Below the pieces are notes generated by a model. The model searched no databases, was not told where the DNA came from, and saw only the letters and a program-made list of their open reading frames with translations. Positions 18,884-34,667 of a stretch of DNA of 64,000 nt are shown here, piece by piece. How positions within the stretch are numbered: position 1 is the stretch's first letter; every line of letters begins with the position of its first letter. The DNA is from Nitzschia sp. pyKryTriq1 (lineage: Eukaryota > Bacillariophyta > Bacillariophyceae > Bacillariales > Bacillariaceae), in the NCBI GenBank assembly GCA_956465555.1, contig OY101127.1, forward strand, positions 434,001-498,000, written 5' to 3'. The position numbers and the translations under genes are program-made.

Positions 18884-21800
18884 ATGAGAGTGCATTGGTT
18901 TGCCTTCGTGGCAGCACTTGTGAGCAGCGGAGGTGGGAGTTTGTCGTCGGCGCAAGAGGCCTCCCGCCCCGTCACGGACCACGGAGTCCTCGAATGGATC
19001 CACAATTCTGAGGGGGGATACATCCACCCTGACCAAGAGTTGCGTGTGGACCCGGAAATTGGCTCTTTGGGTATCTTTGCCACGAAATTCATTCCCAAGG
19101 GAACTGTTTTGTGCCAGGTGCCTTGGAGCATCGTCATCAAAAGCGACGACCCCGAGGAAGAAGGGCAAATGTGCTGTGGCACTGTCAAGTCCGTGGCCCG
19201 CGAAATGAAAAAGGGCAACGAGTCCGAGTTCGGGCCGTACGTCGAGTACTTGAATGCGCAGCCCAACGACGATATACCCAGCGCGTGGAGTGATATGGGA
19301 CAAGAGTTGTTCCGAGCCATCGCTGGCGGCAAAGTCGAAGATACGCTAATCCCTCCGGAGGAACCGACTGAGTGGCTGATCTATGATTGGTATGGTAGAT
19401 GTCGAGGAAGCCGGGTCGACAAGCTTGCGGCCAAAGCGGCCATGCTAGTCGTCCAGCGAAGTGACGACGCCATCATGATTCCAGGTAAATATGCACTTGC
19501 TTGCTTTCTTCGCCGCGTGTGGCGGATCCTCGGTGTCGTTGGGCTCGTTCTCATTATTTCGTCGTTCGACTCTATACCACCCAGGCTACGACATGTACAA
19601 CCACCGCAATGGAAAATATCTCAACACGGAGGTCACCACGTACGAAGGAGAAAAGCACGTCACCGCAGCCGCCCGGGACATTCAACCTGGGGAGCAAATT
19701 CACAACAGCTACAATCGATGCAAAGAATGTTCTGGTCGTAGAATTGGATATGGAACTGCAGGTGAGTGGGGGACTTTGCCTGCGAGTGTCCAGATGTTGT
19801 TCTCTTGAACTTACCTTGCTGCTGCTGCTGCTACTACTGCTACTGCGCTTCAACAACTACTTGTACGATAGAAATCCTTCGGGACTATGGCTTCGTCGAG
19901 GCGTTTCCTCAGATTTGGCATTACCAGGGAGACATGCAATTCGAGCTCGACGTCAATGAGCACGGAGGATTCGATTTGAAGTGGATGTACAAAAAAATCC
20001 CCAACAACGACGATCGCCCAGGGGCTATTGTGTGGTTCCGCCGCCAAATCCGTCGATTGCGACAAGTTCGAAATGTCAACTACAAGGATGGCAACCCAGG
20101 CATGCCGGAACATGAATGGAAAACGGCTTGGGAGTTCCAAAGAGCCAACATTCAAGCCATGACGGTGGCAGCAGCCTCCCTAGAGGCGATTGAAGCCGGA
20201 AAGACCGACGACAAGGAGATGGCAGAACTACAGTCGTCGATTCTCGTCAGTGACTTTGATGAAGACATGCCGCACTACGACAAGCTTGACTGGGAATTCG
20301 ACGATCTCGAGTATGTCAACCCAACCTGCAATAACCGGAAAATCATGAAATTCCTAGATCATGTCGTGGTCGAAGAGCTCAAAACGCACTACCAACGTCT
20401 GAATTTTGCCATTCATCCTGATACAATGGACGTGGTGATGGACCTGGACAATATTGTTCAAATTTCGAGCAACTATCGTCCTCAGTACCATGAATACGTC
20501 ACTCATGCAGCCGCAAGATTCGTCAAAGATATCAAGCGCGTCATTTTCATCGGTGGAGGAGATTCCATGCTGCTTCACGAAACCCTCAAGTATCCCGATT
20601 TGGAGTTGGTGGTCGGTTTGGAATTGGACCAGATGGTTACTCGTAAATGCTTCAAGTACTTCCGATCCTCCCCTCACTTTGAAGATCCTCGAGTCGAATG
20701 GTGGTTTGGAGACGCAACCAAGAGCTTGCTCTTGTTGTCGAAAGAATACTGGCAGAGCTTTGACCTGGTTCTGGTCGATCTTTCTGAGACTGTCATGTCC
20801 CTCTCTGTGACCTCTGAACTTGACGTGTTCGACGCCCTCGCTCTCTTACTGAAGCATGACGGCGTCATGGTCAAGAACGAATTGTACATGGAACCATTCA
20901 GCAAGGTCTTTGATTACACTATGGATATTCTTTACGAAAGCCCTGTCATCTGCAGCCAAGTTCTAGCCTTTGGAAGCAACAAGGTCGATTTCATGCACGA
21001 CGAAGTCTACGATCACGGAATCGAAACTTTCTTGTACAAGAACATGCACGATCCTGACACAAGACACAACTTTACTCATGATTATCGTATCAACAATGCC
21101 ACCAAACTGGGCAAATGTGGCAGTCTTCCGAAAATCGAAAAGTTGGAAGAGCAGATTAAGAGTGCCGGTATTGTTGAAATCGTCGAAGCCGAGAAGGTTA
21201 CTGTGACTTTGGATGAATCTCTTGGAGAGGTATTTACTCACGTCATTGAGCGAGAAGGGTTCCGACCGCTCGCCGCTCCAGTATATGAAAGTGGCATGAT
21301 GATGATTGTCATGAAAGAAGGATATGTCATGACTCGAATGTGGCCGGGGGAGAAATATTGCAACCTTGACGTCAACCTATGGGGTAAATTCCACAAATTG
21401 CACGATTTGAGACAATCCTTGACGGATGCCATGGGAAGTGAATTGGTCTCGCGCTTCCGAATTGTCGTCGGCGGCATGTACGGTTCCGACACCTGGACTG
21501 AGGACCGTGACATCATTGGGCCTCAGATTGTTCAGACTCGTAACTGCGATATTCCAACGCACGGCGATGCTCCGGACGTTAGCGAGGAGCTCATCACGGC
21601 GGCTTTTGACAAATCCATTGGGCTGGTCAATGGTGAGGAAATCACAGCGATTGTTGTCTGCGAGGATACTGACGATTGCTTGGCAACCAGACTTGTCAGC
21701 AAGCACAACACCGTCCGGAAGATTGTCAAGCTAAAGGCATGCAAGAGGCTACGAGAGTCGCCCGATAGCGTTGATTCTCAGTATGCTTGCGAAGTCGACT

Positions 21801-22891
21801 TGACGCTCGAAATCAAACAGAAGCTTGCAAACGACAAGGCTGATCTTGTCGTAGTCGACTCGAGCGCGTCCTACCAACTAGTCCAGATCTTGAACAGTAT
21901 TTTGAGTCGCGATGAATATCGCAAGGACATTATTCGTGAGGAGAATGTCTTCATGGCCTGGACTATGAATGCGGAGGAAGAGGAACACCAACGATTCTTC
22001 TTGGATCGTTACCGCAAGCAACACGAATGGGATCCCATGGCCCGCGCCGAAATCTGGATGCAAGACGGAAAGAAGGCTCTTGAATTCGGCGTCCTCTCAG
22101 CCGGTGACAAGAAGATTGTGTACAAAATTGACGAGATTGAGACCAGTCTCAAGAAGTCTTTCAAGGGCAAGGAGAATATCAAAATTGAACTTCGTGGTAT
22201 CTATGGCGGTTTGTACGAGTTCAAGGATGTCTGGGAGCCCCAAGAATTTCTGCAATCAGACTATGATACTGACGCCGGGTACGACCATTACTTTGGACAG
22301 AAACCTTTGGCTCGACACACAGTATTCCAGTTGGAAGAAAAAGAAAACATGTCATTCGACTTCAATAAGGACTCGTTGAACCATGCGCTGGCCAAGGCTT
22401 TGGAAGCGGTGGCCTTTGAATGTACGGCGCGCTATTCATATGTCGGCGTTGGTGAAGGTGTGGTGATGCTCTGCATGAATCCGTACAAGGGAAGCACGGT
22501 CCTAGTGTGGGACGGTCGCAAGCACGTCGACATTAGCTACTATTTGATGGGTGACGAGGAGGGAGAGCCTGAACGATTCATGGGAGCCTTTTTGCATCAC
22601 GTCGGCAGGAAGTTGACAGTGGCCCTTCGCGACGAAATGCCACGCGGAACCGGAAGGGTCATCAACTTTGCGGGAGACCTGAGAACCCGCGAGGAACTGA
22701 AAGATTTCTACGAGAATCTGGAATCATATGAATTCAATTCGAAGGCGAAGCCGGAAGCGGGTGGAGATGATGAGGAAGGTGATGAGGAGGATGACGACGA
22801 CGATGAAAATGAAAATGACGAAGAGGAAGACGCAACGGTTCCTGACATGTACGCCTTTGACGTCAAGGACCCAGCCAAAGCAGAACTGTAG
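18884..22891 (+). CDS. SET / spermidine-synthase-like / AdoMetDC-like fusion protein, copy A
   Basis: Exons 18884-19484, 19585-19761 and 19872-22891 give 1,265 residues. A signal peptide opens the protein (MRVHWFAFVAALVSS). A SETD3/Rubisco-LSMT-type SET domain follows: LGIFATKFIPKGTVLCQVPW (62-81), GYDMYNHRNG (201-210), ARDIQPGEQIHNSYN and DYGFVEAFP near 264-272. Residues about 480-600 look like an aminopropyltransferase (spermidine synthase) core: VIFIGGGDS, LELDQ, DPRVEWWFGDA and FDLVLVDLSE. Around 711-765 and 1095-1155 are two stretches resembling AdoMetDC (SpeD): MIVMKEGYVMTRMW with LDVN, and a second copy ending PRGTGRVINF. In the first, the position of the pyruvoyl-forming E-S of SpeD reads E-G. 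The C-terminus is very acidic. The domain set fits enzymes proposed for diatom long-chain polyamine synthesis or transfer in the secretory pathway; that role is inference. A same-strand paralogue lies at 30.7-34.7 kb. Confidence 0.85.
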
Positions 22892-24804
22892 CGGACTCTA
22901 CAAGCTGCCCAGCTCCACCTACTCCTGTCTGGCGTAGCTACTGCCGTTCCGGCGCAAGAGGGATTCATCGCTCTGGAGCGTCAAGGTACCTGGTAGTAGA
23001 TAAATTAGACAGTGCACTTTTTCGCTGCCTTACGATATACTCCGTGGAGTACCGGTATATAGTCTAATACATCCGCAACAGTGAAATCCTTCATACTTTT
23101 AAAATAGTTATTCCCGTATTGTTTTTGGCAATTTCCTATATCTTTGCATCATCTGATTTGATCGGGATCGAATAGAAGTTCAATAGTGAAACTAAAGTAG
23201 CGATGACAATGTTGATAGAATCAGTCTATTTCATAGAATTGCGAGAAAAGCTATCTAGGAACCAATGCTGCTGTTCGATGTTGGAAGAAGAGATCGATCA
23301 AGAAGATCTTGATTTTGATTTTGTTCTTCCTCGTAACGGTCAGAAACGTCCGCATGAAACGGGCGCGCACGAATGAAATCGGTCGACGACAGACGAAAGA
23401 TTCGCATGAGTCCTGCTGCGATCTTGTTGTTCTGCGACACTCCCTCTCGAACCGAGGTCTTCCATCCAAGTAGTAATAAAGCAAAACTAGTGTTGCTAAT
23501 CGATTGCTTTCTAACATTGTGAGCTTTAAACTATTTGCTTTTGGTTTGCTTGTAAGATGTCGGTCGTCGAGATCTTTGTATTTTCAGTTCTACAATCTAC
23601 GTAGAAAGTGTAACAGAGTCTACGTGAGATTCGTCTGGATCTTCGTCTTCGTCGAGGGAGCACAGAGCACCCCGCGCTGTAGATTGTTTCCTTCGGTACC
23701 TCCTCTCCTCGACATCTTGTGCTAATCCTCAGTAAGCGCCATCTAGGGGCCTGGCCACCGTCTTGTTTTTCACTGCCGTTAGAATCGCTTTATTGATAGA
23801 ACCGGTCAACATTAATTAATGTGCGCGACTTCTCCCTTTCAAAAACTCCCGCGCTTTATTAGGGCATCACACGTAAAGCGAGACGTGGGAAAATCTGCTT
23901 TCGCGGGAAAAGCAAATTTTCCCACGTCTCGCTGTACGTGTGATGCCCTACCAGGAATCATTCGGACATTGCGGGCGAGAATTGAATTTATGACTATTTG
24001 GGTGGTGTGTGAAAAATAGGTGTAAAGGGGAATGTACAGGGTCAATTTTAGGGGGCGGATAATCAGTTAGGCGCCAAAGGAGGTGGTTTGCAGTTTATGT
24101 GCGGTTGTTGCAGTAAAAAAACTGCAGAGGTGCGGAAAGGAATTTATTTAGAGTTGAGGATTTTTATTCAGCGCGGAAACTTTTATTTTGCAGTTGTGGG
24201 ACTGTGACGTAGCGGGTTGTGTAGTAGAGGATAGTAATATGTCACGTACACCCGTATTGTCAACGTTCCGTATAAAGTGGCGTGTATAAGTACTTACTGT
24301 TTTAGGCCAATGTTTTCAGGTGCGACATGAGTTTGGGCCGCTATGGCCTTTTTTCAGCAGGCCTCTAGATGGCAGAGGAAGCGTGCTGTGAATTGATATT
24401 GCTTTTTAAGGTTGAGCTACGTATTGATTGTGACATCTACTGTTACATTCTGCATCGCTTAATCTCTCTCTTACTTCTTGCAGAGTCATTCCGGAGGTGT
24501 CAATCGAAGTGTCAAACTAGACCGCCTCGAGATGTCAATATCGAGATCTTTTCCGTTCAGTGCGCGTCATGCGCATCACGTCATTCTTGAAGATATCCAT
24601 ATTCTCACAGAGACAAGCACGCACAAAAATTCCAAACGTCTGGCCGCCAATCAGCTGTGGTCACTTTCGCGCAACACCACTCACCGCAAGCTCCACAAGA
24701 AACCAGCAAGCTATTAAAAAGCAAGCCCGGGTTTTCAGTTTTCACCTTTTGAGCTTTGAGCAAAGTACATACTACAGGTAGAGTGACGATGACGAACAAT
24801 TGCC
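22892..24804. other. Intergenic region with a hairpin MITE
   Basis: No gene is supported between the first fusion gene and TRM10. A hairpin MITE lies at 23862-23948. The rest is AT-rich with one GGTACC motif near 22985 and another (ACCGGTAT) near 23052. Confidence 0.5.
23862..23948. mobile_element. 87-bp hairpin MITE with TA target duplication
   Basis: Nearly the whole element is one inverted repeat: GGGCATCACACGTAAAGCGA at the left pairs with the right end with a single-base difference near TAAAGC/GCTGTA, and the pairing continues through GACGTGGGAAAAT. TA dinucleotides flank it at 23860-23861 and 23949-23950. It is short even for a MITE and would fold into a long snapback hairpin. Confidence 0.85.
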
Positions 24805-25956
24805 ATGGTACCAGGTACACAAGTAGCAAACGACGAAGTAAGTGCCCCAGACACTCATACTCAGATTGGCGATATGCTTGCTGGTTCCGATGAAGGGAAT
24901 CATCACTCAACACGTGCGGCGGCAGCCTCCGAAGTCAAGACTCCATCACACGGAAACACTTCTGAAAGCCAAACCACAGACGTTTTCTCTAAGGCGCAGA
25001 GCAATCAAGAGACATCCATAGAAAATGACGCTCCATCCTCTGAAAAATCGAACGGCGCTCCTCATCAGTTGTCCAAAAAGCAACGAAAACGTCTCCTCAA
25101 ACGAGAAAAAATCCAAGACAAGAAACGTCAAATGAAGGAGGAGCGCCGCGCCCAAGCGATTGCCGACGGAAGAGATCTGGTGGCCGAACAACGACTACAA
25201 GCCGAGCGCACGGCACTGGGGTACCGAAAACGGCGATTAGAGCTACTATGGCAAACGGAAAAGTTACCCTTGGCTAGGCAATCCTTTCAGATTTGCGTCG
25301 ATTGTTCTTTTGAACCACAAATGCAGCCACGGGAAATCGCCAGTCTGGCACAGCAATTGAAATATTGCTATTCGTACAATAAAAATGCTCCGAATCCTTG
25401 TCTGGTGGCGGCGACTAGTTTGCAAGAAGGCGACACTACCTTGACATTGCTCCGAAAAGAAGTAGGTCTCGCTGAATGGGCCCAGCGACTTTTTACATGT
25501 ACAAGCGAATCACTTGAGGATTATTATCGCAGTCAATCATCAAAGGTCATCTATCTGACCAGCGACTCGGACACTATACTTGAAAAGCTAGAAGATGACA
25601 AAATTTATGTGATTGGGGGGATCGTCGATCGGAACCGATTGAAACGAGTGGCAGTCGACCGAGCGGAGCGTTTGGGTTTGGCAACGGCCAAACTTCCTCT
25701 AGATTCCCACTTGGCGCAAATGGATTCCACTCCTGTCTTGGCTTGCAATCATGTATTTAATATTCTCCTCAAATGTCGGCAATATGGAAACGATTGGTCA
25801 AAAGCCCTTCAAGACGTCCTTCCCAGCAGGAAGGATGCCAAATTTGGTCGAGGCAAGGAGCAAGCCAAGGACGAGGATACCACACCAACAACAACCGATC
25901 CAAAAACTGAGACGGAACAAGACTGTACCACTACGAGAAATTTTAAGAATGCCTGA
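24805..25956 (+). CDS. TRM10: tRNA (guanine-9/adenine-9 N1)-methyltransferase TRM10/TRMT10
   Basis: Single exon, 383 residues. The SPOUT-class TRM10 domain covers about residues 165-340: CVDCSFEPQMQPREIASLAQ, then QLKYCYSYN, YLTSDSDTILEKL, and YVIGGIVDRNR, the conserved G-G-(I/L)-V-D-R knot motif that binds SAM and contains the catalytic aspartate. LATAKLPLDSHL follows. A lysine/arginine-rich helix (KKQRKRLLKREKIQDKKRQ, about 92-110) precedes the domain, as in other TRM10 proteins, and helps bind tRNA. The enzyme methylates N1 of purine 9 in tRNA in cytosol/nucleus. The first eight codons are made of a GGTACC-type repeat motif, and the next ATG is 23 codons on (24874), so the true start may be either. 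Confidence 0.9.
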   Translation: MVPGTQVANDEVSAPDTHTQIGDMLAGSDEGNHHSTRAAAASEVKTPSHGNTSESQTTDVFSKAQSNQETSIENDAPSSEKSNGAPHQLSKKQRKRLLKREKIQDKKRQMKEERRAQAIADGRDLVAEQRLQAERTALGYRKRRLELLWQTEKLPLARQSFQICVDCSFEPQMQPREIASLAQQLKYCYSYNKNAPNPCLVAATSLQEGDTTLTLLRKEVGLAEWAQRLFTCTSESLEDYYRSQSSKVIYLTSDSDTILEKLEDDKIYVIGGIVDRNRLKRVAVDRAERLGLATAKLPLDSHLAQMDSTPVLACNHVFNILLKCRQYGNDWSKALQDVLPSRKDAKFGRGKEQAKDEDTTPTTTDPKTETEQDCTTTRNFKNA

Positions 25957-26068
25957 TTGATTTGCTCATCGGTCGCCATGGTGCTGTGCATATTGACAAA
26001 CGTGTAATAGGATTACTTGTACCGGTAGCAATGTGCCGGTAGCCATGCCTTTAACCGTTTCACACCGA

Positions 26069-26089
26069 CGTGGGCTTTTTCAGCCCACG
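26069..26089. other. Hairpin downstream of TRM10
   Basis: A perfect 8-base stem (CGTGGGCT/AGCCCACG) with a five-base loop is followed within ten bases by a run of seven T. It sits about 110 bases beyond the TRM10 stop. In a eukaryotic gene this is probably a 3' UTR or processing structure, not a bacterial-style terminator. Confidence 0.4.
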
Positions 26090-26214
26090 CGCTTTTTTTG
26101 TGCGCCGCAACACAAAAATCAAAACACGTCGACAGTAACACTTCAACTTCTCGCTTCCTATTGTCATCATTATCAGAGCAATCGACATCGTAAAGCATGT
26201 AATATATGATTTAA

Positions 26215-27801
26215 TTAGTTGCATTTGACTGTAGAATGGTTAAAGGTAAGCCAACAGATCTCACAAACATGTCCACATTCGTGGCAGCCTTTGGTAGTCC
26301 TCTTGCGTCTGTTGCGTGCTTTTTGTGCACTCATTCCTTCATCTCGTAGTCTCTTATAACAGCATATGCAATGTTCGGAGTCGCCAATTTCCACTCTTGT
26401 ACGGTCGTGACCTCGAGGAACACTGGTAATATTTACTGGACGGGCAGTAGCAGCATGGGCCTTCCCTGTGGTCAAATTTTCCTTGCAGAAAAAACACTGC
26501 TTGCAGTCGCAAGGAATATAATTCTGTTGCCGCATCCACTTTGGTTTGCCTGTCGGATCATTGATGTCATTCCAATCCATCCGAATGCCCTCCTCTATCA
26601 ACGCAAGCGCAAGGTCAATTTGAAATTGATACCTCCCCATATGAGCATTGGCATATTTCTTGTATCCTTCCGGCCCTGTCCCAGTCTTCGCCATACTGAG
26701 AACAACAGTGAACATTGCATGAATAACAGAGTCAAAGGACCAGAAGAAGATACGAAGGTAGTATCTGTTGGTTCGGATTGATACTGTGTAGTCTGCCGTA
26801 TCACGATCTTTGTGGTCAACACCACTCATGAAAGTGCTGTACTCTGTGATGATCGGGGGGCTCGGAACTTCTTCTCGCTTCCTTTTGTTCTTATTGTATC
26901 GCAGCACTTTGTGTCCATCATTGGGTTGAACCATATGATTATGCAAGACCGCGACTTCTTTTCTGTCTTCCCAGACAGTAGCTTGGGCAGTAATATTTCC
27001 TCTCTTTGAGGATATAGAGCGCGTTGCCCGTCGATACCAGCCCCTGTCAATTCTTCTCTAGGATGTCCCCGGAACCGGGGCGTACCACCATGGAAGAAAA
27101 GCTTTGACTACTAGATTGCAATATCTATGCACCTTTTTACTTTAACCCGCTTTGAATCCTTTTTCTCTTCCTCCAATTTTCTCTTTTGCTCTTCATCAGA
27201 GGCGCAGAATCGGCAGGATTGGCAGGATGTTCCCGATATTATTTATATAGTAGGCAGAATTCTCTTAAGACAAAACTTCAGATTTAATTAAGGTACTTTT
27301 TCTCTGCCAAATTCTCCAGGGAGCTTGCAAATTCCGCCTGCAGATTTTCTCTGGCGAATGCTCCTGGCGATCCCTCACTGAGGTACTTTTTCTCTGCCAA
27401 ATTCTCCAGGGAGCTTGCAAATTCCGCCTGCAGATTTTCTCTGGCGAATGCTCCTGGCTATCCCCCACTATCGTATTTTTGGCCTCCCGCTACTCCATAG
27501 AAATCTCCTGGAGATTCTGCGCCTCAGATGTTCTTCCTCTTCTTTCTTGATGTCCTCTGGATCCATCTCGGCAGTATCCTTTGTAAAAGGGAGTATTTGA
27601 AATGTGTAGAGGGCCACAGAGAGTAACGGTAAAGTTCAAATCATGGCCTAACACCCTTGTCTGGCCGTCAGCCGTCTCTACGCGATAAATAATACTGTAA
27701 CGGTATGTGTCGTTGTCATGCACAGGCATATATGTCACCGTTCCATGGAACTGTCCTAACGTGTGCCCTCGCCAAAATCCAAAATCCAAAGGGAGCCCCT
27801 C
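26215..27801 (-). pseudogene. Decayed piggyBac-type transposase
   Basis: The C-terminal part (26215-27057) is open and reads RGWYRRATRSISSKRGNI, ATVWEDRKEVAVLHNHMV, then TEYSTFMSGVDHKDRDTADY and the trailing cysteine-rich zinc finger (C-D-C-K-Q-C-F-F-C, HCICC, CHECGHVCEIC). F-M-x-G-V-D-x-x-D is the block around the third catalytic aspartate of piggyBac (DDE_Tnp_1_7) transposases, and the cysteine-rich tail is the family's C-terminal DNA-binding domain. Upstream, at 27490-27801, a separate frame (LGQFHGTVTYMP ... YSIIYRVE) resembles the F-x-G-x-V ... Y-x-V-x-Y N-terminal module found in diatom and oomycete piggyBac proteins. The middle, including the first catalytic aspartates, is missing or scrambled, so the element is dead. 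Confidence 0.75.
27291..27470. repeat. 90-bp tandem duplication
   Basis: Two nearly identical 90-base copies, each starting AGGTACTTTTTCTCTGCCAA, lie inside the piggyBac remnant. Because 90 is a multiple of three, the minus-strand frame carries two 30-residue repeats with the core EHSPEKICRRNLQAPWRIWQ. Confidence 0.9.
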
Positions 27802-28093
27802 AATGCCACCTTTTTGTAGCCGGCCCGGTCCTGTTCAAACCAACTCGTCCTGGCCTACTCCGACTAAACAGTGGTACTCCGACCGTCCGGCACACTCACC
27901 AATCAGGAATTAGGAATCAGAAAATTCAATAGAAAAATCAGATAATTCCCAAAATTCCGCTTTCGAATTTCCAAGCAACAACATCCAACCATTGCGCCCC
28001 GCAAGTTTTGTGTTTATTTTGTGTTCATTCTCTGCATCACTCTCACATCACATCATCTCTACATTACTCCATCAAACACACCTCACCATTATC

Positions 28094-29110
28094 ATGTCAA
28101 CCTATGACGAGCTCCTTTCATCACTGGATGAGGAGAATACTTGGAGGGCTGATGGTATTTTCCTTGACCTCCATGAGGACCTGACATCAACAGCTACAGT
28201 CAGGTATGATGTCGCGTCGACCATTGTTGATTCTGCGTCTAAGTCTGACCGTGTAAGTACTGCACTCAGATTGTTCGAATTCGAAAAATAGTATTTTCTC
28301 TCGAAAGTTCGAATTTCCCTTACGTTTTTTACCCCGATGTAGGAACAACACAAGCTCTGGTTTCCCCCCCAATACAACGAGGATAGCGCTTCCGTCAGAG
28401 AACTAGTTGTTGCCCTCTGCGCCAAGGCATGCATCCCTGTGGGCTTTTCTCTTGTAACGAGGACTGTTGAAAAGCAAGGTGCCTTTAGGAAAATTAGACT
28501 TATTTGCAGCAGGGGGTTTCTGCTACGAGAGGTAAGCACTTCGGAAATATGAAAATTGAATTCGAAATATCGAATTCGAATTCGAATACGTAATTCAACA
28601 TCGAATTCGAATTCGATGTGGAGACATGGTATTGCTGTGACTTTGCCAATAGAGGAGGAATATGGAAGGGAATCATTTGACAAGAGATGGTTCCTGGAAT
28701 CTCTCGATAAGATCGTGGAGAGAAACCCAACAAGGCAAAATGAGGAAAGTGAATCAGGGGATGACGGATTTGACTTCAGCTGCACCAACAATGATTCAGA
28801 TGGAGAAGCATCTACGAATACAGAGCACAAGGAGTCCTCGGGAGATGCAGAGTTGGAAGAGTGGAAAAGAGACCCTTTTGCCAAATTCATGCCGATGTAC
28901 AAGGTTGTTATGCAACAAATAAAGACAACAGATGACGTGAAGAAGGTTCAGGAACAATTCAACATTATGCACCAAATAGTCCTGGCAGGAAAGCCAAAAG
29001 AGAAAGGAAACAATAAAGGAGTAGCGTCCCTCCCCAATACAGAAACACGAACCAAGGCACCTAGGAAGCGGGCGAGGGGGAATAGTCATACAGATAATTC
29101 TAAATTCTAA
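28094..29110 (+). CDS. Unrecognised three-exon protein of the TIR cassette, possibly FAR1-like
   Basis: Exons 28094-28252 and 28343-28531 are well defined (donors GTAAGT and GTAAGC). The third exon ends at 29110; its acceptor is uncertain, probably around 28655. The product is roughly 270 residues. Exon 2 reads VRELVVALCAKACIPVGFSL and KIRLICSRGF, similar in outline to the DNA-binding part of FAR1/MULE-associated proteins, where a G-F-x-(V/L) strand is followed by an x-x-C-S-R-G motif. The C-terminal part is acidic, then has a helical stretch (PMYKVVMQQIKTTDDVKKVQ) and ends in a basic tail (APRKRARGNSHT). No catalytic DDE triad is seen. The second intron contains GAATTC-rich sequence. Function unknown; a DNA-binding transposon protein is the best guess. 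Confidence 0.5.
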
Positions 29111-29201
29111 TTAGAATTAGAACTCTAATTAGAATTCGAAATGTTAATTCGAATTCGAAATTTGGAAATACGTAAACCTTACGTGTCGCAATACACCGAC
29201 A

Positions 29202-30284
29202 TTAGCTACTCTTGGCCTTGACACGTTGGGAAGAGTGCATAGCACAATAATCCTTCAATTTCATCCCAGCCTTGCATGGATGCCCTGTGAGGGTAGTGCA
29301 CCAGAGGCGAGGGCCATCATCAGCACCATCCTCATCCATGTTGTTCTGTTGCAATAATTCGATGTTGTGAGAAACAGTCTGGAGGAAACAGACTGTTTCA
29401 CGCTAGTCGACAACTCACCTTGGCCTCACCCTCATCATCGTCATCATGAGGAGTAGGAACATCATCATCGTCGTCACTAGCAGGAGGATTCTTCTTCAAC
29501 TTCTTCTTGGGCGCTTCTTCTTCATTTACGTCTTCATCATCATCATCATCATCAGCATCAGCATCGGCACTAGCAGGCGGAGGAGGATTCTTCTTCTTCT
29601 TCAACTTCTTCTTGGTCTTGGGCGCTTCTTCTTCTTTTTCTTCTTCATCATCATCTTCATCATCATCATCATCATCAGCATCGGCACTAGCAGGAGGAGG
29701 AGGAGGATTCTTCTTCTTCAACTTCTTCTTGGTCTTGGACACTTCTTCTTCTTCTTCTTCCTCATCATCAGTGGCGGGCGAATCGGATTTTTTAGCCTAA
29801 AGTCAAAAGTAACAATTGGAGAATTCGAATTCGAATTAGAATTAGAATTCGAATTCAAGCCTGCAGTAAAGACGCACACACTAGTCGAGAACTTACTTTG
29901 GCTGATTTCTTCTTCTTGTTCTTTGACTTCTTCTTGCTCTTGGGCACTTCTTCTTCTTCCTCATCATCATCATCATCATCATCATCACTCTCATCGTCAC
30001 CGCCATCATCATTACCCGAATCGGATTTTTTAGCCTAAAGTCAAAAGTAACAATTAGAGAATTCGAATTAGAATTAGAATTCGAATTCAAGCCTGCAGTA
30101 AAGACGCACACACTAGTCGAGAACTTACTTTGGCTGATTTCTTCTTCTTGTTCTTTGACTTCTTCTTGCTCTTGGGCACTTCTTCTTCTTCCTCATCATC
30201 ATCATCATCATCATCGTCGTCATCACTATCATCATCACTCTCCTCGTCACCATCATCATCACTATCAGAATCGGTTTTTTTTAC
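29202..30284 (-). CDS. Acidic/lysine-rich protein of the TIR cassette with duplicated exons
   Basis: Four exons on the minus strand: 30284-30129, 30034-29897, 29796-29419 and 29345-29202, all phase 0. The first three each start (V/A)-K-K-(S/T)-D-S and consist of D/E runs followed by lysine blocks such as VPKSKKKSKNKKKKSAK; exon 3 holds further internal repeats (KTKKKLKKK, NPPPPPASADADDDD). Two introns are near-identical copies of about 95-100 bases. The last exon differs in character: RLWCTTLTGHPCKAGMKLK then DYCAMHSSQRVKAKSS, with three cysteines and a histidine that could bind zinc. A 5' exon with a start codon was not found; the acceptor at 30285 shows one exists or the gene is 5'-truncated at the repeat end. 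Function unknown; a chromatin or DNA-binding protein is conceivable. Confidence 0.55.
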
Positions 30285-30409
30285 CTAAAGTGAAAAGTAA
30301 TAATTAGAAAATTCGAATTCGAATTCGAAATCGAATTCGCAGGAACTGCAGTAGAGTTGGTTTGAACAGGACCGGGCCGGCTACAAAAAGGTGGCATTGA
30401 GGGGCTCCC

Positions 30410-30674
30410 AACCAGCGAAGAACGGCCGGCCGGCCGCGGGCGGCATGCGCAGAAATTCAAACAACGAATCATAATCATCATCACATCAAACGGCCGTCGT
30501 GGCTATGATATGTACATAGCATTGTGCATTGAGTGATGATGAATGGAATGATCTACCATTCTTCCCCATTTGCATCTCTTCGATATTATGGGAGGCGAGC
30601 GAATGCGATCACCCGCCTCAAAAATCGAAACAATCTCACACGGACCCCGCACGACCCCCGTTACGAAAAAGAGG
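30410..30674. other. Spacer between TIR cassette and second fusion gene
   Basis: Contains a GC-rich palindromic run (GGCCGGCCGGCC near 30423) next to the right inverted repeat, and the probable leader of the second fusion gene. Upstream in-frame ATGs at 30588 and 30603 exist but would push the signal peptide inward. Confidence 0.45.
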
Positions 30675-33600
30675 ATGACAAAAATGGCGAGATGGTTGCT
30701 AGTGTTCCTAGTAGTTGCGGTCGCAGCGAGGTGCAATGGAACAGCACACGTACCAACGCCCGACGGTGATGATTTGGAGACTTGTGAGAAGCCTTCCGCC
30801 CCTGCTCATGGCTGTGATGACGATGTTTACGATACGAGTACAACTACCGAAAAAGTAGCGAACAAGTTCTCTCCTTTAACGCTGGACAAAGGTGTCCTGT
30901 CGTGGATCCACAACACCGAGAAGGGATACTACAACCGGAAACAGCAGTTTCGACACCAAGATCCAAACGACCCCTCTACACTCGCAGGAATATTTGCCAA
31001 GGAGCGCATTGAAAAAGGAGAATTGCTGTGTCGAGTTCCATGGGAGTATGTGGTAACGAGTCGGAGTCAAAGATTCGACGACGACGACGACGAGCAACTG
31101 TCGTGTTCGACAGTTCGAGAACTGGCGCGGCAGATGCGCTTGGGCAAGAAATCCAAATTCGGCCCCTACATCGAGTATCTCAAGGAGCAGCCCGAGAATC
31201 AGTTGCCCTCTATGTGGTCGAATGCGGGTAAAGCGCTGCTGCTGAAAGTTCTGGGACAAACGCAAGAAGAAAATAGTCTTTCCTTTGACGATGAATATCA
31301 CCCTGGAGTCGTCGACCTGCAGGTTTTCCATTTTCCTCCTGATGGCGCCTTGAACTGGATCGAAAGTGGTTGGTATGGCGGTTGTAAAGGCGACCCCTCT
31401 GACAAAGTGGGGAGGAAGGCTGCCATGATGGCAATTTTGCGAGCCGACGACTCTCTGATGATTCCAGCGTATGACTTTGTAAGTTGCTGATGGACTCTGA
31501 GGGATCATACCAGTACACAGCTGCTACTGGTGTATTCACCCATCAATTTATTCTTGCTCACACTCTTTTCATTGTGTCGCGTTTTATTTCCTCTAAAAGT
31601 ACAACCACCGAAATGGGGAGTATCACAATGCAGACACGACAATTGAGCACGGTCGCTTTCATGAGACTCGAGCTTTGCGAGACATCGAACGAGGGGAGCA
31701 AATTTACATAAGCTACAACCGATGCTCGGAGTGCGGAGGTCGAAAGGATGGTTATGGAACTGCTGGTACGTGCGTTTGCTGACTTTATCGTCATAATTAT
31801 GAGTCGAATTACTTTTCGATTCTGATCTTCTTTTTCCTTTGGATGAAAAAGAAATGTTTCGAGACTATGGCTTTGTCGAAGCATTTCCTCAACGATGGCA
31901 TTACTACAATCACAATGAGCTGGAGTTTGAATTGATACATGACGAGGAGAGTGGATATTACTCTGTGGAATGGGTTATTCGGCCGGAAGATGACCGTGTC
32001 GAGATTATTCGAGAATGGCTACTCGGTCAGGTCCGTCGACTGGAACGGCTGCGCCATGTGACTTCCCCAACTCAAGAAAGCGAACAAAGTGGTGTCCCTA
32101 AAAATGAGTGGGACATGATCTGGTCATTTCACAAGGCAAACATAGTGGCAATGCGGTCCGCCATCAAAGCCTTGGATGGGATCGATCGAACTTCGGCGAC
32201 AGACGAGCCGGAAGTGTCTGTGAGCGATCTGTATCACGAGTTGGTAGATAATTCGTGGAAAGCTGTCGACCTGGAGGTTTATTATTGCAACATGGACACG
32301 TTTGAACAATATCATCATGCTGAATCGGTCTCTACCTTCCTTCAAGACATTGACTTTTCTTTCAGTCGGCGTCAGCACCTTGATGTCTGTATGCACCGAA
32401 ATGAAAAGACGGCTGTGTGCTCAAGCTTCCGACCGGCGTACTACGAGTATATCGTGCATCCGGCAGCCAGTTTGGTCAAATCTGTTCGGCGCGTTATGGT
32501 CATGGGTAGCGGTGCCTCCTTCTTGGTTCACGAGGTCATGAAATACGCTTCTACCCTGGAGTTGTTGGTGGCCATCGAGGTGGATCAAACGGTGGCCCGG
32601 AAGGCCTTCCAACACTTCTACGTCGACCCTCACTTCGACGACTTACGAGTGGAATGGTGGTTTGGAGATTTCGGAGAAATTCTTTCGGTACTCCCGGAAG
32701 ATTACTGGAACTCTTTCGACCTGGTACTCATCGACACGGCCAAATCAAATTTCCGTTCGATCTTCCTGGATGGCATGGGGTACGCCGATCTTGTCCACAA
32801 GCAGGGGATCGTGGTATCTCACAACAATCACATTGGCGAATTGAGTGAATCATTTGCCTTTGCAAGTCGACTGGCCTACCATCTCAAACCGAATTGTATC
32901 CAGGTTCTGACGCTGGGCAGCCACTCGGTTGACTTCTTGCATTCAACTTCTGTGGATCACAAAATTGACTCCCTGGTCTACGAAGCTTCGTTGATGGAGG
33001 ACCATCGTCTCAGGATCTTCCATGACTTTGAACACCGTTCGGTCAACTCATCGGGAAGTAGAGGCATTGCCGCTGAAGATGAGGAATTATCCTCTAGCCT
33101 CCTTGTTGGAGTGATCGAAATGGTGGAAGTTGTCAACGTGACCAAGAATCTCGCCGATACTGTGGATGTGATACAAGCTGCCGTCACGAAACAAGGGCTC
33201 AACATTCTCTCAGCAAGTCAGCTTACATCTAGTGATTCTGCTGTCGTGGTCATGAAGGAAGGTTATATTGTTGCCCGATTGGACATCCAGCACCAGTATG
33301 TTGGGCTCGATATTAGCCTCTCGGCTAGAGTGTCGAAACTCGCCGCCTTGAAATCGTCTTTAGTCGACAATCTAGGTTCTCCGGTTTCGTCATATCATTT
33401 TGTGACCAATGGATTGGAGCAACTCGAAAGAAAGTCTCTCAGTGCTGAACAGCTTGATGATTCCGTCATGCAAAAAGCTCTAGGGTCACTTGATGCTCCT
33501 GTCGTTGAGGTCATTGTCGATGAAATACTTCAAACCAAGCTCAATTCGCTCCCAAAGCAGGCGTTGTTGATTTGTGAAAACACGACCAATTGTCTGAGTC

Positions 33601-34667
33601 GCGATCGGATCACAGACCTCAATGCTACAGAATCCTTACACCGACTTTTCATGTGTCGAAATCTACAAGATCAAAGAACGGAAGCATCTCTCCGGGATGC
33701 CATGATCGCCTGTGAACATCAAACCCGGGAGTGGATCGAGTCGACATTGGTTTCCAAGGAGATTCGTGTAGGCTTAATTGTTCTGGACGGGGGGCTATCC
33801 CGTCGATCGCTTCAAATCCTGGATGCGATTTTCAACATGGAAACAGAACCGTGGCAATCATGGATTCCTGGGCAAACTCTCTTGTTGACCTTGCCTGCCC
33901 GCCGAGATACATGGCAGGAACATCGATCATTTAGAGATCGATTTCATCCCATGGGAAGGGAGTGGAAAACGCCTCAAACTACAGATGCTTCGGTCAAGGC
34001 CGAGTTCCTCGTCACTGACAGAGACGAGCTGCCGCTCGCTAAGTTTGGCGTGGTCTCGCACGGAGGAGAAGATACCCTTGGTTCGATACAAGACTTAGAG
34101 GCCAATCTCGCTCAGAAACTAAGTCAGTTGGAGTACAAAGTCCAACTCATCCAGCTGCAAGGGCAACCGCTTGAAACGAGCGACATTCCTCCGGCACGCA
34201 ACTTTGATCACTACGAATATGCTCCCTCCGATAAAACTCCCAGCTCTCCTATCATTCTAGGTGGAGCCCAGGCCCTTTTCCAAGTCGACTTTGTGCAGAA
34301 AGTCTCCCCGCATATAACGGTGGATATGCTTTCGACGTTTGTTGGCGACGCTCTCCAAGTCATGGGCGCGACGACGATTCTTCAGACGCATATCTCTGGC
34401 GACAACCACAACGTGGTGGTTGTCGAATGCGAAAAGGGAAATGTGGTTGTGGTCTTGGATCCAGAACACAACAGCATGGATTTCAACTTTTTTTCTCCGT
34501 GCCATAAGTACGAAGCGTGTGTCGCTGACGATTTGTTCCTTTTTGTCAATGCGCTGGTCCGTCAGTCCTCCGAGTTGGCGATATTTTCACTGGAATTTTT
34601 TCCGCGAGGCACTGGAAAAGTCATGAACTTTGCTCCCGGCCAAAAGGGTAATGTTGAGGAGGAATAG
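30675..34667 (+). CDS. SET / spermidine-synthase-like / AdoMetDC-like fusion protein, copy B
   Basis: Exons 30675-31478, 31600-31765 and 31852-34667 give 1,261 residues. The N-terminus (MTKMARWLLVFLVVAVAA) is a signal peptide. The SET part has AGIFAKERIEKGELLCRVPW, MIPAYDFYNHRNG and LRDIERGEQIYISYN, then DYGFVEAFPQRWHYY. The aminopropyltransferase-like core is near residues 535-640: VMVMGSGASFLVHEVMKY, AIEVDQ, LRVEWWFGD and FDLVLIDTAKS. The nucleotide-binding G-G-G-D-S of copy A is G-S-G-A-S here. The first AdoMetDC-like part (VVVMKEGYIVARL, near 780) and the C-terminal one (VVVVECEKGNVVVVLD, ending PRGTGKVMNF) match copy A block by block. Copy B lacks the long acidic tail. The first intron sits 11 coding bases later than in copy A; the second is at the same place. 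So the genes are old duplicates that have diverged in likely active-site residues. Confidence 0.85.

Follow-up and report, generated by a model that had tools for sequence, protein, structure and literature searches.

Could a single diatom protein both methylate silaffin lysines and extend them with aminopropyl units? The question is raised by a locus of Nitzschia sp. pyKryTriq1, here called the window (64,000 nt; contig OY101127.1, positions 434,001 to 498,000), in which a sequence-only reading had recognized two paralogues with SET, aminopropyltransferase (APT) and AdoMetDC-like parts. Silaffin lysines are dimethylated or bear methylated aminopropyl units, according to excerpts of PMC4557024, and the enzymes attaching methyl groups or polyamines to them are left without identification in the review passages concerned, PMC4557024 among them. 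In such passages, diatom proteins that combine AdoMetDC and aminopropyltransferase with a histone N-methyltransferase domain are suggested to make and methylate polyamines and to transfer them onto silaffins, and the proposal of diatom polyamine fusions is credited to Michael (2011; FEBS Lett 585:2627). The idea is accordingly not a new one, and prior discussion of polyamine-enzyme fusions in diatoms was mentioned in the sequence-only reading as well. As two papers also cite Nemoto 2020, in the parts concerned, for diatom-specific SET proteins, this kind of fusion is already known; new here are a seven-gene family, opposite site losses within it, and an additional methyltransferase-type fold.

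Both genes lie on the plus strand and have three exons: gene 1 (18884-22891) encodes 1,265 aa and gene 2 (30588-34667) encodes 1,290 aa, and these coordinates coincide exactly with the gene ends. In the predicted gene models all four introns are GT-AG and internal stops are absent. The proteins share 32.8% identity and, from the N-terminus onward, the order hydrophobic N-terminus, SETD3/LSMT-class SET domain, APT core, AdoMetDC-like 1, domain X and AdoMetDC-like 2. Two intact same-strand paralogues of roughly 1,260 residues with a shared domain order, as originally described, are thus present. They are spaced by about 7.7 kb, and a tRNA m1G methyltransferase-like gene is located between them. 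Their features are:

18884..19484, + strand: gene 1 exon 1, putative signal peptide in a hydrophobic N-terminus, and the N-terminal SET part (gene model, hydropathy, Pfam SET)
19585..19761, + strand: gene 1 exon 2, SET catalytic centre
Codons N206 19599, H207 19602 and Y243 19710, + strand: gene 1 SET residues, in exon 2
19872..22891, + strand: gene 1 exon 3, SET end, linker, APT, AdoMetDC-like 1, X, AdoMetDC-like 2, acidic tail and stop
20399..21055, + strand: gene 1 APT core, aa 436-654 (Pfam 67.4 bits, PDB profile matches, site table)
21170..21511, + strand: gene 1 AdoMetDC-like 1, aa 693-806 (homology via paralogue C13b)
Codon 21320, + strand: gene 1 AdoMetDC-like 1, Gly at the pyruvoyl Ser position
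21569..22228, + strand: gene 1 domain X, aa 826-1045, probable fold of class I methyltransferase type; might be a second APT that has decayed
22298..22669, + strand: gene 1 AdoMetDC-like 2, aa 1069-1192 (profile match to AdoMetDC-like 1)
30588..31478, + strand: gene 2 exon 1, N-terminus and most of SET
31600..31765, + strand: gene 2 exon 2, catalytic centre of SET, in which NH and Tyr are kept
31852..34667, + strand: gene 2 exon 3, from SET end to AdoMetDC-like 2, with stop
32349..32999, + strand: gene 2, decayed APT core (aa 519-735; Pfam 32.2 bits; GGGD Asp replaced by Ala, codon 32514)
33111..33449, + strand: gene 2 AdoMetDC-like 1, Gly at the pyruvoyl Ser position (family alignment only)
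33492..34184, + strand: gene 2 domain X (located through alignment with gene 1)
34260..34631, + strand: gene 2 AdoMetDC-like 2 (by alignment to gene 1)

Gene structure, domain homology and the presence or loss of catalytic residues are directly supported. Because exon 3 starts inside the C-terminal region of SET, and because a single open frame runs from mid-SET to the APT in paralogue C15, SET and the downstream exons belong to one gene and not to separate ones. The fusion and its fold assignments are likewise supported, with Pfam SET and Spermine_synth scoring above cut-off in both proteins; the AdoMetDC family was not reported by the Pfam scan for either window protein. A structure model covering all of exon 3, built from the sequences of both window genes, reached a mean pLDDT of 36.4, and its fold search returned no match at E<=0.001; this model was set aside.

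The description of the locus as a tandem pair is accurate for the two window genes but too narrow, since the genome was found to contain seven paralogues on three contigs, genes 1 and 2 included, the others being labelled C13a, C13b, C15, C16m and C16p. A splice position is conserved among them, and ten cysteines are invariant across the family. The APT is the most conserved domain (mean pairwise identity among the seven paralogues 53.8%), followed by SET (35.8%) and AdoMetDC-like 1 (34.9%), with X the least conserved (24.4%). A further candidate, a Tudor domain in an insert of C15, appeared Tudor-like by eye and was set aside as unproven, Pfam and PDB searches having given nothing relevant. 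A search for relatives in viral contigs yielded 35 pattern matches, none of which was confirmed.

The assignment of the SET domain to the SETD3/LSMT class held, with Pfam SET at 39.9 bits in gene 1 and 38.1 bits in gene 2 (cut-off 22.4). The gene 1 domain alone gave no PDB match at E<=1. A profile of all seven paralogues matched SETD3 (E 4.8e-7), Rubisco LSMT (2.5e-5) and SETD6 (3.8e-5), though without telling the lysine methyltransferases LSMT and SETD6 apart from SETD3, which methylates histidine. The NH motif and the Tyr of the family align to SETD3, and Asn, His and Tyr are all present in genes 1 and 2. SETD3, Rubisco LSMT and SETD6 are not known to be secreted or to contain an APT. Three of the seven paralogues lack the SET Asn, and one of these three lacks the Tyr as well (its only loss in the family); methylation is therefore not a family-wide property.

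The APT core is nearest to spermidine synthases. Spermine_synth (PF01564; cut-off 22.9) scored 67.4 bits in gene 1, 32.2 bits in gene 2, 62.3-74.2 bits in four other paralogues and 41.1 bits over part of the domain in C13b. The catalytic Asp, the GGGD Asp, the acidic cofactor-site residues and the Tyr were taken as the functional residues of this domain. On this assignment the catalytic Asp, the Tyr and the cofactor-site acids are kept in all seven paralogues and the GGGD Asp in six, while the second Asp of DxxD is replaced by Glu (five), Lys (one) or Thr (one). Gene 1 has the complete set except for Glu at the second DxxD position. In gene 2 the GGGD Asp is Ala, a Lys stands three residues after the catalytic Asp (the second DxxD position), and APT identity to the other paralogues is 38.9%, compared with 59.8% among those others; bifunctionality of gene 2 is consequently unlikely, judging by these replacements. 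The idea of both activities in a single protein fits gene 1, which keeps its SET and APT sites, better than gene 2, whose APT is damaged.

Site losses in SET or APT affect four of the seven paralogues and run in opposite directions: gene 2 keeps SET with a damaged APT, whereas three others lack the SET Asn and keep the APT. Gene 1 and C16p retain all mapped SET and APT sites, save one Asp-to-Glu change.

The two AdoMetDC-like segments differ in the strength of their homology. For segment 1, gene 1 scored 15.7 bits (E 0.51), which is under the cut-off; of the seven paralogues C13b alone exceeded it (28.9-29.1 bits, cut-off 25), and C13b also matched TIGR03330 at E 2.1e-6, under that model's own cut-off. 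The family profile of segment 1 matched the genome's own AdoMetDCs with 49% probability (E 1.7e-4), a score that none of 100 column shuffles attained. Segment 2 matched segment 1 with 15% probability (E 0.0018; 0/100 shuffles as high) and true AdoMetDCs more weakly (5/100 shuffles as high). The original interpretation needs a correction with regard to decarboxylated AdoMet (dcSAM). Compared with the class 1b (PF02675) active site, the residues that we take to be the pyruvoyl Ser, the His and the Cys are changed in all seven paralogues (Ser to Gly 7/7, His to Arg 7/7, Cys to Trp 6/7 or Ser 1/7), and for this reason the domain is predicted to be unable to decarboxylate AdoMet or make dcSAM.

Between the two segments lies domain X, a methyltransferase-type fold absent from the sequence-only reading. 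A model of X with AdoMetDC-like 2 had a mean pLDDT of 47.6 and is usable for the X core only (10-residue blocks at 71-83); in the AF2 model AdoMetDC-like 2 stays below 60, which makes it uninformative for that segment. A Foldseek search with X gave an APT as best and sole match at E<=0.001 (E 9.3e-4), with TM-scores of 0.29 and 0.36 and an rmsd of 9.9, and in VIA-align RlmJ ranked highest, with spermidine synthases on a par with the remaining methyltransferases. The GGGD motif is missing from X. In sequence, the match of the APT core (APT1) to X showed no clear excess over shuffles, 3/100 and 9/60 of which scored as high. APT1 with segment 1 against X with segment 2 scored above 60/60 shuffles, but the 63 aligned columns are the AdoMetDC-like parts. 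Given these low TM-scores, the lead of RlmJ and the near-shuffle sequence match, we take X to be probably a class I methyltransferase-type fold and claim nothing narrower, such as a second APT.

The genomic context provides eight silicon-transporter loci over the cut-off, and the genome is accordingly that of a diatom-like silicifier, as far as gene content indicates. Eight AdoMetDC loci were found elsewhere in the genome, each followed by an APT match and seven of them with the ESH motif; these separate AdoMetDC-APT pairs could be a source of dcSAM. Hydropathy revealed hydrophobic N-termini in all seven paralogues, the signal peptides being putative; in gene 2 an alternative downstream ATG (M30) would bring the hydrophobic stretch closer to the start. 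The paralogues may be secreted, may localize to the ER or the silica deposition vesicle (SDV) and may modify silaffins.

We consider it about even odds (probability about 0.5) that these proteins work as enzymes in the secretory pathway, where lysines or polyamines destined for silica formation are methylated, aminopropylated or both; the dead AdoMetDC would then be structural and dcSAM would come from separate genes. Secretion, substrates, activity, dcSAM supply and the silica role are what we infer in this model. After entry into the diatom secretory pathway, the SET domain would use AdoMet to N-methylate lysines of silaffin-like proteins or attached polyamine chains, and the APT would transfer aminopropyl groups from dcSAM onto the same lysines or chains. 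The dead AdoMetDC-like domains would act as structural or dimerization parts, as in human spermine synthase, whose AdoMetDC-derived domain is described in excerpts of PMC12803844 as catalytically dead yet structurally required. Separate AdoMetDC-APT genes of the same genome, most with the catalytic motif, would supply dcSAM; the model presupposes that AdoMet and dcSAM are both available in the lumen. The prediction for gene 1 is both reactions, and for gene 2 methylation only.

Iterative LCPA synthases and N-methylases that have free polyamines as substrates instead of protein lysines would suit the nearness of the APT core to spermidine synthases, and the review passages ascribe LCPA synthesis and N-methylation to diatom fusions. 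The SET class, however, consists of protein methyltransferases, and synthesis of free LCPA could more readily be ascribed to those AdoMetDC-APT genes of this genome that have the catalytic motif, which makes this alternative rather unlikely in our view. The dead AdoMetDC site in all seven paralogues, the loss of SET or APT sites in four and the poorly conserved X without GGGD would also agree with mostly non-catalytic luminal scaffolds or sensors, which would bind AdoMet, dcSAM or polyamines and organize active fusions. We regard this as distinctly improbable, as the APT core, which includes the mapped catalytic residues, is the most conserved part of the family, and gene 1 and C16p keep every mapped SET and APT site, the Asp-to-Glu change aside. 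Least credence is given to a secretory protein methyltransferase in which SET alone matters and the APT is a substrate-binding remnant: gene 2, with SET sites kept and APT decayed, and the citations of Nemoto 2020 for diatom-specific SET methyltransferases in the passages concerned speak for it, but in three paralogues the SET Asn is gone (in one of them the Tyr too) and the APT sites remain, and SET is far less conserved than the APT.

A bolder form of the favoured enzymatic reading, held only tentatively, sees in this family the missing system that transfers aminopropyl and methyl groups to silaffin lysines. In this form the proteins would be secreted, the APT would act on protein lysines, the family would have arisen by repetition of a module of methyltransferase fold and AdoMetDC-like segment, and labour would be divided among the paralogues. 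Gene 2 would then only methylate, C16m would only aminopropylate, as perhaps would C13a and C13b, gene 1 and C16p would do both, and C15 is unallotted. Should the APT indeed act on protein lysine, its substrate would be a protein, which is not known to be established for any aminopropyltransferase.

As paraphrased in reviews, the fusions of Michael (2011) resemble those described here in joining AdoMetDC, APT and a histone N-methyltransferase-type domain in diatoms; set beside that paraphrase, the present proteins differ in seven members per genome, domain X, a second AdoMetDC-like segment and opposite site losses. SET, APT and an AdoMetDC-derived domain indeed occur here in one diatom protein. 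This combination is what we take to define the fusion type of 2011, and the abstract of that proposal reportedly also describes rearranged fusions with catalytically dead AdoMetDC. The diatom SET proteins of Nemoto 2020 are similar, in the citing passages, in being suggested to regulate LCPA function and the proteins that form the wall. An APT is joined to an AdoMetDC-derived domain also in human spermine synthase and in bacterial AdoMetDC-APT fusions (excerpts of PMC12803844). The order found here is SET-APT-AdoMetDC-like with a dead AdoMetDC site, and no active AdoMetDC stands N-terminal to the APT. In the human and bacterial proteins AdoMetDC precedes the APT, and neither a SET domain nor secretion is known for them. 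The literature search returned no paper joining at least four of SET domain, spermine synthase domain, diatom, signal peptide and silica, and a paper of December 2025, in the passage concerned, states that diatom APT fusions need further study (PMC12803844). Seven copies that differ in kept and lost active sites make the 2011 fusion proposal testable: with SET lost, APT lost or both kept in different paralogues, each activity can be assigned by comparison.

The two window genes lie on the same strand, and each encodes a hydrophobic N-terminus, a SET domain, an aminopropyltransferase (APT) domain and two AdoMetDC-like segments flanking a domain of class I methyltransferase-type fold (X). Neither rebuilt reading frame contains an internal stop. 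The genes and the features near them are:

18884-22891 (+), gene 1: predicted model, three exons, GT-AG introns, 1,265 aa
24793-25956 (+), between gene 1 and gene 2: tRNA (guanine-1) methyltransferase-like gene (PF01746, 95.1 bits)
26215-27057 (-), between gene 1 and gene 2: open frame weakly like DDE_Tnp_1_7 (17.1 bits, below the 22.4 cut-off); by eye, the C-terminal portion of a piggyBac-like element
29398-30307, upstream of gene 2: low-complexity stretch whose open frames are repetitive (on the - strand rich in Asp, Glu and Lys)
30588-34667 (+), gene 2: predicted model, three exons, GT-AG introns, 1,290 aa

Searched with exon 3 of gene 1, the host genome (40.65 Mb, 20 contigs) yielded seven SET-APT-AdoMetDC-like loci, plus ordinary APTs. 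The pair of paralogues noticed in the sequence-only reading is real, but it is not merely a pair: further members are a divergent pair on contig C16 (C16m and C16p), a tandem pair on C13 (C13a and C13b) and one gene on C15. All seven were modelled and show pairwise identities of 24.9 to 51.0%. Six of the seven modelled genes have an intron at corresponding positions where the SET region ends, and the C15 paralogue runs as a single open frame of 1,168 codons from mid-SET into the APT and onward; the SET and downstream domains therefore belong to one gene, as had been proposed. Next to C16m lies a related gene (L041:1900-3100, -) with a hydrophobic N-terminus, the same type of SET and part of the linker, which stops before any APT. 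The C15 paralogue carries an insert of about 130 residues ahead of AdoMetDC-like 2, by eye two Tudor-type modules, for which Pfam and PDB gave no relevant match. Eight silicon-transporter loci exceeded the cut-off (seven with scores of 873 to 885 bits), which indicates that the host is a diatom or close silicifier; three lie inside about 10 kb of contig C1 (307304-317295).

The Pfam SET and Spermine_synth domains score above their cut-offs in both window genes, supporting these two assignments. The family SET profile matches structures of SETD3, Rubisco LSMT and SETD6 in the PDB (the gene 1 SET alone gave no PDB match at E<=1), and an exon 3 profile from six of the seven paralogues matches spermidine synthase structures, from E 8e-14. 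The two AdoMetDC-like segments fared unequally. For segment 1, the cut-off is passed solely in C13b, gene 1 falling below it, and the family profile aligns with the genome's own AdoMetDCs at 49% probability, outscoring 100 of 100 shuffles. Segment 2 resembles segment 1 (15% probability, again above all 100 shuffles) but matches true AdoMetDCs weakly, with five of 100 shuffles scoring as high.

At the AdoMetDC-like site, Ser is replaced by Gly and His by Arg in all seven proteins, and Cys by Trp in six and Ser in one. In the APT, all seven retain the catalytic Asp, the Tyr and the acidic cofactor-site residues, and only gene 2 lacks the GGGD Asp. Three positions after the catalytic Asp, five copies have Glu, gene 2 has Lys and C15 has Thr. 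In SET the His is invariant and the Tyr is missing only in C16m; the Asn has been replaced in three copies (C16m, C13a and C13b) and persists in the other four (gene 1, gene 2, C16p and C15). Since C13a and C13b keep His and Tyr, their SET domains may be weakened rather than dead. Mean pairwise identity over the seven is 53.8% for the APT (59.8% without gene 2), 35.8% for SET, 34.9% for AdoMetDC-like 1, 31.0% for AdoMetDC-like 2 with its flank, 29.4% for the linker and 24.4% for X. Gene 2 is 38.9% identical to the other paralogues in the APT and 37.3%, the family level, in SET. Different copies thus seem to have lost opposite sites, an argument for regarding SET and APT as functions that can be separated.

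A hydrophobic N-terminal stretch is found in all seven paralogues (its best 11-residue segment has a Kyte-Doolittle mean of 1.74 to 3.31), and beyond residue 60 the 19-residue mean never exceeds 1.62. The first ATG of gene 2 lies more than 30 residues ahead of this stretch, and translation may therefore begin at a downstream ATG. Ten Cys are invariant in the family, compatible with, though not proof of, secretory-pathway disulphides.

The earlier interpretation, a role in silaffin modification, is reasonable, but this kind of idea had already been published, as review passages citing Michael (2011) indicate. One such passage has fusion machines of this type transferring aminopropyl units to silaffins (PMC4483651, citing that paper by number), and the phrase of its title occurs in PMC3820600. 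Passages of PMC12803844 call for further study of diatom APT fusions and describe a dead AdoMetDC domain retained in human spermine synthase for dimerisation; diatom-specific SET proteins are credited to Nemoto (2020) in passages of PMC11554505 and PMC11151724. The present analysis adds a family of seven genes, an AdoMetDC site that is dead in each copy found, an additional fold, and site losses of opposite kinds, which allow the SET and APT activities to be tested separately.

Besides C13b, eight host-genome loci match AdoMet_dc above the cut-off, each followed within 1 kb by a same-strand match to Spermine_synth. At L049 a single open frame covers the AdoMetDC and extends into the beginning of the APT; this locus, at least, is therefore fused. 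The ESH motif is kept in seven of the eight (the C6 copy reads GKGH), and the three loci scanned further carry a C-terminal SET-like stretch (13.7 to 15.2 bits, all below the 22.4 cut-off). Two domain orders thus appear to coexist in the genome: AdoMetDC-APT(-SET-like), in which most copies have the catalytic motif, and SET-APT followed by a dead AdoMetDC. Proteins of the latter order cannot produce decarboxylated AdoMet and would need it from another source. On contig C7 (L047, 1446500-1456499), three AdoMetDC-APT genes have open frames of the same sequence repeating about every 3.66 kb, the result either of recent tandem triplication or of the assembly.
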